DNA of 64,000 nt from an uncultured Synergistales bacterium (GTDB lineage Bacteria; Synergistota; Synergistia; Synergistales; Aminobacteriaceae): positions 62,001 to 126,000 of the forward strand of contig CAJOCL010000004.1 in assembly GCA_905233565.1 (NCBI GenBank), given 5' to 3'. Positions within the stretch are counted from its first letter, which is position 1, and each line of letters starts with the position of its first letter. This document shows positions 36,262 through 42,398 of this stretch, one piece after another. The notes under the pieces are model-generated. The model saw only the letters and a program-made list of their open reading frames with translations, made no database searches and was not told where the DNA came from. The position numbers were made by a program, and so were the translations under genes.

Positions 36262-36411
36262 TACCGTTCATTAGAATTGGTTAGTTCACAAAAAGCGCGA
36301 GAGAAACCCCAGATGCTTTAGCGCTGGGATGAAATTGTGTATGCTATAATAACATAATTCCTTCGGTACAGGGAGCAGTGATGTTGAAATTTTGTGAGGG
36401 GGAATAAATTT

Positions 36412-37617
36412 ATGAATATAGAAATTCAAAACGATATTATTACAATTTTTCTTGATGGACGCATAGATTCAAATAATGCAAATGAAATCGAAGCTCAAAT
36501 TATGAATGCGTTATCTAAGAATCCTAAGGTTTCTAAAATTCAAATCGATGTTGAAAAACTTGATTACATTTCTTCAGCAGGATTGCGAATACTTCTTAAA
36601 TTACGAAAGCAAATTAAAAACTCTTTGCCAGTTTTTAATGCTTCAAACGAAATTTATGAAATTTTTAACGTAACCGGTTTTACTGAATTACTTGATGTTC
36701 ATAAAAAAATGCGTGAAGTTTCGCTTGAAGGCTGTGAGTTAATCGGTGCCGGTGGTTTTGGAAGTGTTTATCGAATTGATACCGAAACTATTGTGAAAAT
36801 TTATAAACCAAAATTTAGCCTCGAATTTGTAGAACAAGAGCGTAACATATCCCATGAAGCCTTTTTAATGGGAGTTCCAACTGCTATATCATATGATGTT
36901 GTAAAGTGCGGTGATAGTTACGGTGTAGTCTATGAAATGCTGAATGCCAAAACCACAGCACAAATTATAAACGAAGATCCCGGCAAAATTCCTGAGATAT
37001 GCTCTAAGGTTGCCGAACTATTGAAAGAATTGCATAAAATTGTTCCTCACTCTGATGCCGGATTACCAAGTTTCAAACAGCAGTTATTAAATTGGGTTGA
37101 TTCAATTTCTGAATTTATCACAGAATCAGAAGCGGAAAAAATTAAGGCATTTATTTGCAGTATTCCTGACTGCAATACTTTTTTGCACAGGGATTATAAT
37201 TTAAAAAATATCATGCTGCAAAATGGCGAGCTTAGATTAATTGATTTAGGTTCAGCCTCCATCGGAAACCCGATATTTGATATAGCTTGGCTGATAGATT
37301 GTTACAAGCCTATTTTTGACGTTTGGCATGACGTTTGGCAACTAAGTATTGAGATGTATAGAGCCTATTTGGGTTTTGATTTGAAATACGGAGTTCAGGT
37401 GTTGTCTGAAATGTGCGGAACATATTTTGGATTGTCATCTCAGGAGGAAATAGAAAATGTTACACAAAAGCTCTTACCATACAGTTTTTTAATACTGTCG
37501 TATGAAGCTTTTTTTTCAGCCGGCACTGACCATGTCTTGATTCAATCAAGAATAGAGAGTGCTGTTCGTAAACTTCTTCTGCCAAGTATAGACCATGCAC
37601 AGCCTTTGAATTTTTGA
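36412..37617 (+). CDS. STAS-domain (anti-anti-sigma-like) protein fused to a kinase-fold phosphotransferase
   Basis: N-terminal STAS: ITIFLDGRIDSNNANEIEAQI...IQIDVEKLDYISSAGLRILLKLRKQI; C-terminal kinase fold: IGAGGFGSVYRIDTETIVKIYKP, FLHRDYNLKNIMLQNGELRLIDLGSASIGNPIFDIAW. Confidence 0.88.
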   Translation: MNIEIQNDIITIFLDGRIDSNNANEIEAQIMNALSKNPKVSKIQIDVEKLDYISSAGLRILLKLRKQIKNSLPVFNASNEIYEIFNVTGFTELLDVHKKMREVSLEGCELIGAGGFGSVYRIDTETIVKIYKPKFSLEFVEQERNISHEAFLMGVPTAISYDVVKCGDSYGVVYEMLNAKTTAQIINEDPGKIPEICSKVAELLKELHKIVPHSDAGLPSFKQQLLNWVDSISEFITESEAEKIKAFICSIPDCNTFLHRDYNLKNIMLQNGELRLIDLGSASIGNPIFDIAWLIDCYKPIFDVWHDVWQLSIEMYRAYLGFDLKYGVQVLSEMCGTYFGLSSQEEIENVTQKLLPYSFLILSYEAFFSAGTDHVLIQSRIESAVRKLLLPSIDHAQPLNF

Positions 37618-37652
37618 ACGCATAATAAATATATCAAGAGGGAAAATTTTTG

Positions 37653-39207
37653 ATGACACTTGACTCCGTAAGAACAGGAACTTTAATAGAGAATAAATAC
37701 CTTGAATATTTTTTCTCTGCACTTATAACAGGCGGAAGTTTTTCAATAGCTTACATAGTTGACAGAATAATGATAGGGAATCTATTAAGTACAAAAGCTC
37801 TTGCCGCAGCAACTTTAACGACACCTGTTATTTATGTAGTAAATATTATATTCGGTTTTTTCATTTATGGCGGTAACACAGTTGCTATGACATACAAAGG
37901 GAGGTGCGATGGAAAAACTGCGGATAAATGCTTCACAATATCAATAATTTTAGGCTCGTTAATAATGCTGTTGTTTGGAATTATCGGTTTTTTATATCGT
38001 GATTTTCTTACAGGGAGTGATGGGATATGGGATCATGAGTGCCGCATGGGCAACAAATATAGGATATTTTGCCGGACTGCTGCTCTTAATTCCTTATTTT
38101 TGCTCTGAAAATCGAAGTTTACATTTCACAGCGATTTCTTTACGGGATATAAAACTTATCCTTGAAGCATGTAGCAGAGGAATGGCTACAGCACTTTCAC
38201 ATATGACGGGTTTCATAAGAACAATAGCTATGAATACTATTATACTTGCAGCAGCCGGTACTGTAGGAATGCAAATTTTAGCGGTTTGTATGTCGGGATA
38301 TAATCTTGCATATATTTTCTACACAGGAACGAGCCAAACGATGCTTCCGATAGGCGGAGCTTTATATGGTGAGAAGGACTACAACGGACTTCGTACTCTC
38401 ATGATAACAAGAATAAAAATTGCTCTTGGAATTTGCAGTGTTATCTTTATTCTGTTTGAGATATTTCCCGAACAAATCGCAGGAATTTTTGGGCTTCATA
38501 ATCCTTCCGTTATGCCATTATTGAACATAGTGTTCAGGTTATTTGCCCTAAGTGTACCGGCAGGCGGTCTTGCTTATGTAGTGAGGGCATATTATCAGGC
38601 AACCGGTTATCAAAATACTGCGTCCGTTTTAGCTTTGCTTGAAGGCGTAATATTTTTTGTGCCGATTCTGTATCTCCTCGCAAAAATCAATTTCGGTGCT
38701 GTTTGGCTGTCTTTTGTTTTTGCTCCGATGCTTTCAGTGTGCGTAATTTTGATTTATATGCAGTACAAAGCTAAAAAAGAGGGCAAGAATAATTTTCTGA
38801 TGCTTGGACATGAAAAAGAAGCTAAGGTTATAGATTTTTCTGTGGAAAATAAGATAGAGAAAGCTATAGAAGCCTCAGAAAAAATTCGTAAAATTTGCAT
38901 ACAAAACAACATTTCAAGCCGTTCTGCAAATATATTATCACTTGCTACAGAGGAACTATGCACAAACACAGCTAAATTTGCTTACGGTAAAAAGTCCAAG
39001 TTTATTGACATCTTTCTTAAGGTTTATGCTGACGAGATAATTTTGAAAGTACGAGATAACGGTGCAGTATTTAATCCCACTGAATATATTAATGAGAGCG
39101 GTCAGGAAATTTCCGGGTTAAAGACTCTGAATAGCTTACCTGTAAAGATTATTTATAATCGTGTAATAGGTTTTAACACGACGATAATAATTTTACAATG
39201 TAAGTAA
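37653..39207 (+). pseudogene. MATE-family transporter fused to a C-terminal RsbW/SpoIIAB-like HATPase domain, split by an internal deletion/frameshift (ORFs 37650..38108 and 37975..39207)
   Basis: Frame 1 gives about TM1-3 (FSIAYIVDRIMIGNLLSTKALAAATLTTPV...DFLTGSD); another frame resumes GVMGYGIMSAAWATNIGYFAGLL...; C-terminus ANILSLATEELCTNTAKFAYG, LKVRDNGAVFNPTEY (N box and DxG box). Confidence 0.75.
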
Positions 39208-39338
39208 AAAATAAAAGAGCCTCTGAAAAACGGAGACCTTTTTGTTAATTTTTTATTTTACTCTTCGTGATATTCTACTGGTATAATTTTCATTTGAGTT
39301 AGAGAATTAACAAGAACATAAAGGAGCTTGATTTATTT

Positions 39339-40281: not shown

Positions 40282-41034
40282 TTGAGGCTTAATATTGCTG
40301 TTGTCGAAGATGATTCGGCAGAAAGCATGAGGCTTATTGCGTTTATACGTAACTGGTTCGGCATTCATGATTCAAATGAACTGGGCACGCTTAAATCTTA
40401 CCCGAACGGAATTGAAACCGTAAAGGATTTCAGGCCGGGCAGTTTTCATATTGTCTTCATGGATATCATTATGGAAGGGCTGAACGGTATAGAGACGGCA
40501 AGGCTTCTGCGACAGTTGGATTCAAGGCTGCTGATTGTTTTCACGACAACTTCAAGGGATTACGCTTTCGATACTTTCCCCCTCCACCCTTTCGATTACC
40601 TTGTAAAACCCTATAACCAGAAAGATATTAACTCTCTTTTCGATGAGATTATACGTTTCCTTTCGGCTGATGAGGCTGTAATAACGTTAAAGGTAAGACA
40701 TTCAGAACAGAAGCTGAGATTAAGCAGTATAAGTTCAGTAGTTTCTGACGATCACAATGTAAATATTTTCACGGATGACGGCAAATGTATAACTGTTCCG
40801 ATGAAATTTTCCGATGCTGAAAAACTTTTCGCCTGCGATTCACGTTTCATACAGTGCAACAGGGGAATAATAATAAATATGTCCCGTGTTTCGGCCGTAA
40901 AGCTGGGGTCTTTTGTCATGAAAGAAGGCCATGTTTACCCCATGAGGGTACGCAGCCGGACGAAATTAGAAGAAATCTTCTCACAGTATCTCATATCTCA
41001 AATGAGGAACTTGGGGGGAGGGATTAAGTTTTGA
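40282..41034 (+). CDS. LytTR-family response regulator
   Basis: IAVVEDDSAESMRLIAFIRNW, HIVFMDIIMEGLNGIETARLLR, C-terminal LytTR (FIQCNRGIIINMSRV). Confidence 0.92.
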   Translation: MRLNIAVVEDDSAESMRLIAFIRNWFGIHDSNELGTLKSYPNGIETVKDFRPGSFHIVFMDIIMEGLNGIETARLLRQLDSRLLIVFTTTSRDYAFDTFPLHPFDYLVKPYNQKDINSLFDEIIRFLSADEAVITLKVRHSEQKLRLSSISSVVSDDHNVNIFTDDGKCITVPMKFSDAEKLFACDSRFIQCNRGIIINMSRVSAVKLGSFVMKEGHVYPMRVRSRTKLEEIFSQYLISQMRNLGGGIKF

Positions 41035-42398
41035 ATGTAAATATTCACATGGATGGCATTGACAACGCATATTTAACTCTGCGCTGTGTTCTTGATTTTG
41101 CAATACTGATACCCGGAGCAGTTTTTTCATTTCTTCCTTTTTGTACATATTTGAAAAATAAATCAAAGTTTTCATTATTTACGACTGCGATAACATTTTT
41201 ATTTCTTATAATTGCCGGAATATCAATCAGCAGAATATATTTTATTCTCCCAAGACTGATAATGATACCTTTGCTTTTAATTTTGTTCACGCTTTATATA
41301 TTTATTGTCGATGATTCGACAGGCCGCAAATTATTCTGTTTCTTTAATGCTTATATGCTCTGCGTTTTCTGCCGTTTGTATACGCTTTTCATTATGGCAC
41401 CTTACGAAACTGAGAATAAAATATGGCAGTCTTCAGGGCTTTTTACCGTTAAATCAGGCGTAGTCTGCTTAGCTCTCGCACTGATAACGGGATTTATATT
41501 TTTCAAAACTCTTTACGTTAAAATCCCGATGTTAATGAATCAGGAATATATTTCATCAGTCTGGGATTTCCTGTTTATTGCGCCGATGATGATGACGGTT
41601 CTAATGGGCTGGTCGATACCGATTCACCCGGATCTCGCAATGGCCGGGAGGCTTCGGCCTGCTGCGCTGATTTTCCTTGCGCTGATAATGCTTGTCATGC
41701 TGCTTCTTTATCATGTATTCTGGTGGACTGCCGACAAACTTACGGAAGGTGCGAAACTTCAGAATGAAAATATGCTCTTAATGATGGAGGGCAAAAGATA
41801 CCATGAACTGCGGGCATATATGGACGATACGCGGACGATAAGGCACGATTTCAGGCAGCATATTTTAGTAATAACTCAGCTTGCCGGTTCGGGACGTAAT
41901 GACGAACTCATGAAATATCTTGAACAGTTCACAGAAACATCATCAGGATATACGGGTTACTGCGCGAATGCTTATGTTGACGCGATTGCCTCATATTACA
42001 AGTCATTTGCTGAAGGCCAGAAGACGGAAATTGACTGGCATTTGAATCTTCCTTCAAAGCTGCCCATTAATGAAACTGAATACTGTGCGCTTCTTGGAAA
42101 TTTAGTTGAAAACGCATTGAACGCCGTCAAAAAAATTCCTGAAAGCCGCAGAAAGGTAAGAATAATATCGTCAATGATGTCTGACACTATGATCGGAATT
42201 TCAGCAGACAATCCGTTTGACGGGAAAAATTCAAAACTGAAATTCGGCAGGAACGGCCTTCCCGTTTCAATGAAAGAAAGACACGGAATAGGGCTTACAT
42301 CAATATACAGCACTGTAAAAAGATATAACGGATCAATGAAAATAAGAACTGAGAATAATATATTTTCTGTGGATATAATACTTCACTGCAATGATTAA
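41031..42398 (+). CDS. AgrC/GHKL-type sensor histidine kinase
   Basis: N-terminal multi-TM; YMDDTRTIRHDFRQHILVITQLA, LLGNLVENALNAV, RHGIGLTSIYSTVKRYNG; overlaps the response regulator by 4 nt. Confidence 0.92.
   Translation: MNVNIHMDGIDNAYLTLRCVLDFAILIPGAVFSFLPFCTYLKNKSKFSLFTTAITFLFLIIAGISISRIYFILPRLIMIPLLLILFTLYIFIVDDSTGRKLFCFFNAYMLCVFCRLYTLFIMAPYETENKIWQSSGLFTVKSGVVCLALALITGFIFFKTLYVKIPMLMNQEYISSVWDFLFIAPMMMTVLMGWSIPIHPDLAMAGRLRPAALIFLALIMLVMLLLYHVFWWTADKLTEGAKLQNENMLLMMEGKRYHELRAYMDDTRTIRHDFRQHILVITQLAGSGRNDELMKYLEQFTETSSGYTGYCANAYVDAIASYYKSFAEGQKTEIDWHLNLPSKLPINETEYCALLGNLVENALNAVKKIPESRRKVRIISSMMSDTMIGISADNPFDGKNSKLKFGRNGLPVSMKERHGIGLTSIYSTVKRYNGSMKIRTENNIFSVDIILHCND

Follow-up and report, generated by a model that had tools for sequence, protein, structure and literature searches.

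The window, by which we mean the whole 64,000-nucleotide stretch of DNA that was analysed, carries two neighbouring genes on the same strand, the features of which are collected in Table 1. The upstream gene is intact and encodes a STAS domain and an APH kinase-fold domain in one chain (STAS-APH). The downstream gene, whose ATG lies 35 bp 3′ of STAS-APH, encodes a MATE-type transporter with a C-terminal RsbW/SpoIIAB-like ATPase domain (MATE-HATPase) and is broken. A promoter scan scored no better than shuffled sequence. Further downstream, at 40282-42398, lies a gene pair for a LytTR response regulator and a GHKL sensor that is unrelated as far as seen.

Table 1. Features of the STAS-APH and MATE-HATPase locus (positions in the window)
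Feature	Position	Strand	Basis
Ribosome-binding-site-like GAGGGGG, 5′ of ATG 36412	36396..36402	+	Sequence reading
STAS-APH protein, 401 aa, intact (ATG 36412, stop at 37617)	36412..37617	+	ORF, translation, domain profiles
STAS domain, residues ~1-100, SpoIIAA/RsbV-like	36412..36711	+	Profile, structure matches, alignment
Codon of S55, aligned with phosphorylated Ser58 of SpoIIAA	36574..36576	+	
APH kinase-fold domain, residues 114-296, with glycine loop and invariant Lys	36751..37299	+	
APH motif HRDYNLKN	37186-37209	+	
APH motif LIDLGS	37237-37254	+	
MATE N-terminal piece, TM1 to ~TM4 (ATG 37653)	37653..38043	+	54% identical to L217
MATE C-terminal piece and HATPase, different frame	38014..39207	+	48% identical to L217, 41% to L222
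RsbW/SpoIIAB-like HATPase	38854..39204	+	Pfam, NCBIfam, family profile
HATPase N-box EELCTN	38950-38967	+	
HATPase G1 box RDNGAVF	39052-39072	+	
Terminator-like hairpin and T run, 3′ of the MATE gene	39221..39235	+	Consensus match only

Both halves of the STAS-APH protein were recognised by domain profiles. The STAS domain matched PF01740 (E=1.2e-13) and the NCBIfam anti-sigma antagonist model (E=3.6e-17), and the APH domain matched PF01636 (E=9.6e-15; 55.4 bits against a cut-off of 23.2), with the catalytic HxD....N and D motif kept. Among named families, the APH half comes closest to TIGR02172 (APH-like paralogues of Fibrobacter), a model that spans this half only and scored 115.2 bits, under its cut-off of 228.2. 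When the STAS domain alone was compared with solved structures, the SpoIIAA chain of 1th8 was the best match (E=9e-8), and RsbV of 6m36 was also found. An AlphaFold model of STAS-APH made from a two-sequence alignment had a pLDDT of 48 and was poor except for the STAS domain.

S55, which aligns with Ser58 of SpoIIAA, occupies the position at which a partner-switch STAS protein carries its phosphorylatable Ser. This residue was unchanged in all 81 STAS-APH proteins compared, as were the G-L-R one residue after it and the APH Lys. The catalytic Asp of the APH HxD motif was kept in 64 of the 81, and the window copy is intact. A subset of STAS-APH proteins may be pseudokinases, probably those (about 17 of 81) in which this Asp is replaced and the STAS Ser is kept. 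The host genome also holds a second STAS-APH fragment (C20:2069; L002:1500-2010), which is 71% identical, lacks both ends and abuts a CRISPR-like repeat array.

The MatE profile matched both pieces of the downstream gene (E=5e-7 for the N-terminal and E=1e-9 for the C-terminal piece). To describe the break, we used as reference L217, the closest relative, from Lachnospiraceae. Frame +2, from the ATG at 37653, aligned with L217 residues 28 to ~139 and then stopped, and the alignment picked up at residue 208 in frame +3 at position 38014. This gap and change of frame indicate that ~65-70 residues of the N-lobe are absent and that the frame is shifted near 38014-38043. Because the frames do not join, the window has no intact MATE-HATPase; the two frames and the absent residues rule out a single intact gene. 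Intact relatives have the two MatE repeats and 12 TM segments of a MATE transporter (Pfam and structure model), which the window copy does not. The copy is either a pseudogene or an error of the draft assembly, which consists of 34 contigs, and the transporter half of the locus looks dead or mis-assembled.

The ATPase domain at its C-terminus matched HATPase_c_2 (E=5.6e-6, slightly below the Pfam cut-off) and NCBIfam RsbW (E=5e-5); the corresponding domain of the intact L292 protein matched HATPase_c_2 with E=1e-13. For a family profile made from 18 such HATPase domains, that of the window included, the closest solved structures included RsbW of 6m36 (E=7e-5) and SpoIIAB of 1th8 (E=0.01). The structure 1th8 is the SpoIIAA-SpoIIAB complex and 6m36 the RsbV-RsbW complex. 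Since the best solved relatives of both window proteins are chains of these same complexes, the two proteins correspond to their two partners. The window domain has the E...N of the N-box and the D-x-G of the G1 box that are expected of a kinase, keeping the E, N, D, G and F columns. In many MATE-HATPase relatives the Asn of the N-box or the Gly of the G1 box has been lost, and some MATE-HATPases may therefore not be kinases. A confident model of the intact L222 protein (pLDDT 85.5, pTM 0.85) showed the whole MATE fold and, C-terminal to it, a domain of mixed helices and strands. Its fold matches included ClbM, known as the colibactin-pathway MATE exporter.

These results bear on a first-pass annotation made from the sequence. 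Its fusion of STAS to a phosphotransferase with intact motifs was borne out, as the profiles match and the quoted motifs are present, and the STAS, APH, MATE and RsbW-like HATPase domains were all supported by profiles. Its adjoining MATE gene with a HATPase C-terminus proved correct in strand, MatE and HATPase but not in having an intact reading frame. With the MATE gene broken, the idea that the module works in the window is unsupported.

MATE-HATPase genes are widespread across the host's genus. In the fetched neighbourhoods of the host's genus and family, they occurred in STAS-PP2C-MATE-HATPase runs (L154, L155 and L161), next to PP2C (L165), in a STAS-RsbW-MATE-HATPase run with PP2C (L153), and together with STAS, HATPase and PP2C genes (L141). 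Lone APH genes lay directly beside MATE-HATPase in six further loci (L142, L152, L158, L160, L163 and L166). No PP2C was found among the ORFs of the window cassette; one is present in its relatives L154, L155, L161, L153 and L184. We counted neighbours by a uniform rule (three genes on each side, same strand, gaps of at most 300 bp). STAS, PP2C or APH neighbours were found for 14 of 56 MATE-HATPases, compared with none of the 21 plain MATEs from that genus (Fisher p=0.008), a contrast that dropped to p=0.04 when 11 plain MATEs from loci fetched for other reasons were added. Because many contigs end nearby, the linked 25% is a lower bound, and the 42 of 56 MATE-HATPases of the host's family without such a neighbour are an upper bound. 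In the MATE-HATPase tree, these linkages are found on several deep branches. At one locus, the gene next to MATE-HATPase (L137:4635-6512) encodes a fusion of STAS with an AMP-binding enzyme (NRPS-like adenylation).

The host genome has four more MATE-HATPase genes, all intact, and one fusion of an EamA transporter to a HATPase. Its STAS domains number only four, and its intact PP2C genes of the SpoIIE type only two. A STAS gene and a PP2C gene share an operon with the EamA-HATPase and a free RsbW, another STAS and the other PP2C adjoin a MATE-HATPase, and a third STAS is that of the window. All but one of the four STAS domains, and both PP2Cs, are thus next to transporter-HATPase fusions. The EamA operon (C16; L018:2752-8260) encodes a free RsbW, a PP2C, the EamA (DMT)-HATPase, a 310-aa protein and a STAS protein. 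EamA is, judged from sequence, a second transporter family bearing a putative RsbW-like switch kinase. Elsewhere in the genome, C26:757-1092 is what is left of a degenerate PP2C gene of the SpoIIE type.

When GTDB species genomes were scanned with an alignment of the close clade as query, MATE-HATPase turned up in Lachnospiraceae, Oscillospiraceae, Monoglobaceae and others of the Bacillota, and also in Desulfocapsaceae, Fibrobacterota, Bacteroidota and two methanogens. At 29 of 45 loci of these other taxa, an NRPS gene lay in the immediate context; one NRPS that was checked closely had condensation, adenylation, carrier and reductase domains. Several of these MATE-HATPases were accompanied by STAS, PP2C or RsbW, including those of the archaeal clusters L184 and L219. 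We also observed an ABC-transporter ATPase with a C-terminal HATPase_c_2 domain (Pfam; L088:14675-15790), whose operon also has genes for PP2C, RsbW and substrate-binding proteins. L197:14008-15159 encodes a protein with a HATPase tail that resembles it in size and setting.

Genus copies of STAS-APH often adjoined genes for a tyrosine-type phosphatase (PF13350) or PP2C-RsbW genes. None of the 48 copies outside the window had a MATE-HATPase neighbour, which rules out the pair as a conserved unit within the genus. In Bacillota the pair recurred. L292 has exactly the layout of the window, STAS-APH followed after a 49-bp gap by MATE-HATPase. L222 has STAS-APH, a phosphatase and MATE-HATPase behind an NRPS-reductase end, and in L283 a MATE-HATPase is followed by two STAS-APH genes. 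The two genes thus adjoin or lie one gene apart in three genomes, and with L298, which has a partial MATE-HATPase, RsbW, STAS and STAS-APH and so the pair within three genes, the association is found in at least four Bacillota genomes. Among 299 Lachnospiraceae genomes, 34 had STAS-APH or APH relatives and 42 had MATE-HATPase; 20 had both, against 4.8 expected (hypergeometric p=3e-11, a value that ignores relatedness and genome size). The first-pass annotation had proposed a partner switch rewired onto a transporter, an idea open to refutation by failed domain profiles or by a lack of co-occurrence. The co-occurrence was confirmed in these four genomes and in the Lachnospiraceae excess, and neither point refutes the rewired switch.

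Five loci (L281, L293, L294, L297 and L304) encode STAS, APH and RsbW domains in a single chain of 517-536 aa, with HATPase_c_2 at E=7e-26 in the L293 protein. A PP2C gene lies beside those of L293, L294 and L304, and several also lie beside STAS genes; no PP2C was found within the fetched stretch near those of L281 and L297.

The two window genes differ in their nearest relatives. STAS-APH groups with relatives from the genus (62% identity to G082), and MATE-HATPase falls together with L217 and L222, both from Lachnospiraceae (support 100). Because the nearest relatives differ and none of the genus copies is so paired, the window pair joins two separately inherited genes. STAS-APH has the lowest GC content of the 44 window ORFs (34.6% against a mean of 43.5%), and MATE-HATPase, at ~36%, is also among the lowest. 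We infer that the cassette was gained by horizontal transfer and is now in decay.

Partner switches are best known for regulating sigma factors. As in SpoIIAA/SpoIIAB/SpoIIE and RsbV/RsbW/RsbU, a STAS protein with a phosphorylatable Ser, a HATPase_c_2 kinase domain and, in relatives, a PP2C are encoded in one operon. In contrast to those systems, the kinase here forms the C-terminal end of a MATE transporter, the STAS domain may be joined to an APH kinase fold, the cassettes examined contained no recognisable sigma-factor gene, and the proposed target is the transporter. By analogy, the HATPase tail of intact MATE exporters would act like RsbW or SpoIIAB, binding STAS and phosphorylating its conserved Ser, and the PP2C encoded next door in many relatives would take the phosphate off. 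The STAS-bound, STAS-free and phosphorylated states would then turn the exporter, often that of an NRPS cluster, on or off. In STAS-APH proteins the STAS part could dock the APH kinase fold onto the transporter or release it from there, and the APH domain may act on its substrate in a reversible step, as hinted by the frequent tyrosine-type phosphatase neighbour. We lean slightly towards reading the window locus as a two-gene cassette of such a module, with the transporter as output. Since its MATE gene has lost ~70 codons and its frame, this copy of the module is probably in decay, unless the draft assembly is in error at this point.

Several of the same observations could be read differently. 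The APH domain might phosphorylate a peptide-like metabolite and the tyrosine-type phosphatase reverse this step, with MATE exporting the product and the STAS and HATPase domains merely holding the enzymes together. The NRPS genes near 29 of the 45 MATE-HATPase loci of other taxa fit such a scheme, as do the six lone APH genes beside MATE-HATPase, the Y_phosphatase3 gene that is the usual STAS-APH neighbour in the window's clade, and the match to the colibactin exporter ClbM. We nevertheless consider it unlikely, because it leaves the invariant STAS Ser, the PP2C genes and the single-chain STAS-APH-RsbW proteins unexplained, an NRPS gene is missing from the surroundings of many Synergistota loci, and the catalytic Asp is absent from 17 of 81 APH domains.

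Chance could also have placed a decaying, recently acquired MATE-HATPase beside an unrelated STAS-APH. The same layout in L292 and its variants in L222, L283 and L298 argue against this, as does the STAS-APH partner in L222, which holds a sister of the window MATE-HATPase, and both window genes are unusually low in GC and only 35 bp apart. Mere coincidence therefore seems quite unlikely to us, even with a broken MATE gene, two halves of different nearest relatives and no such pairing among the 48 other STAS-APH copies of the genus. That the transporter is a sensor, its HATPase acting as a membrane-tethered anti-sigma factor that sequesters a sigma factor until transport state or STAS binding frees it, we regard as improbable. 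The HATPase is closest to the anti-sigma kinases RsbW and SpoIIAB, but a sigma-factor gene was recognised in none of the cassettes whose neighbours were examined, and the EamA and ABC-ATPase carriers of the domain are hard to fit with the sensing of one sigma factor.

Fusions of EamA and of an ABC ATPase to the HATPase, found in operons of a similar kind (L018, L088 and L197), suggest that transport is the common output of the partner-switching module. In several phyla, intact relatives have the same switch parts beside the same exporters, which suggests that a gene-expression switch has been re-used for transport control. A broader proposal, which we hold only tentatively, is that gut and rumen anaerobes of several phyla, together with archaea, have moved the switch kinase onto exporters (MATE and EamA) and ABC ATPases, and that phospho-STAS, sometimes with a kinase-fold domain of its own, gates transport directly; the cargo would often be nonribosomal peptides, and no sigma factor would take part.

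Parts of such an arrangement have precedents. SLC26 transporters carry a STAS tail. In these, as in MlaB-MlaF, STAS acts on a transporter, without an RsbW-like kinase domain on the transporter and without a PP2C. In MlaB-MlaF, the STAS protein is placed on an ABC transporter (PMC7367683). In Pseudomonas aeruginosa, as far as the consulted parts of the reports go, the output of the SiaABCD switch is an enzyme, the diguanylate cyclase SiaD, and HsbR/HsbA acts on RpoS; both share parts of the partner-switch type, and in neither is the kinase carried by a transporter (PMC7647112, PMC7278518, PMC6482189). In Methanobrevibacter ruminantium, NRPS genes are flanked by MatE, serine phosphatases and an anti-sigma factor antagonist (mru_0068-0071), for which sensing, regulation and export were proposed (Leahy et al., PMC2812497). 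In the portion of that report consulted, MatE is treated as a plain exporter, no C-terminal HATPase is mentioned and STAS-APH is not among the genes given. In the open-access literature, we found no description of MATE-HATPase, STAS-APH or a transporter-borne RsbW or partner switch, which is weak evidence of absence.

The MATE-HATPase exporter kinase is found in many rumen and gut genomes beside peptide-synthesis genes, the products of which may affect hosts and neighbouring organisms. Intact operons of STAS, PP2C and MATE-HATPase, or of the two genes STAS-APH and MATE-HATPase, are suited to testing the proposed mechanism. If the switch gates export, it would be a post-translational control point for the release of secondary metabolites.
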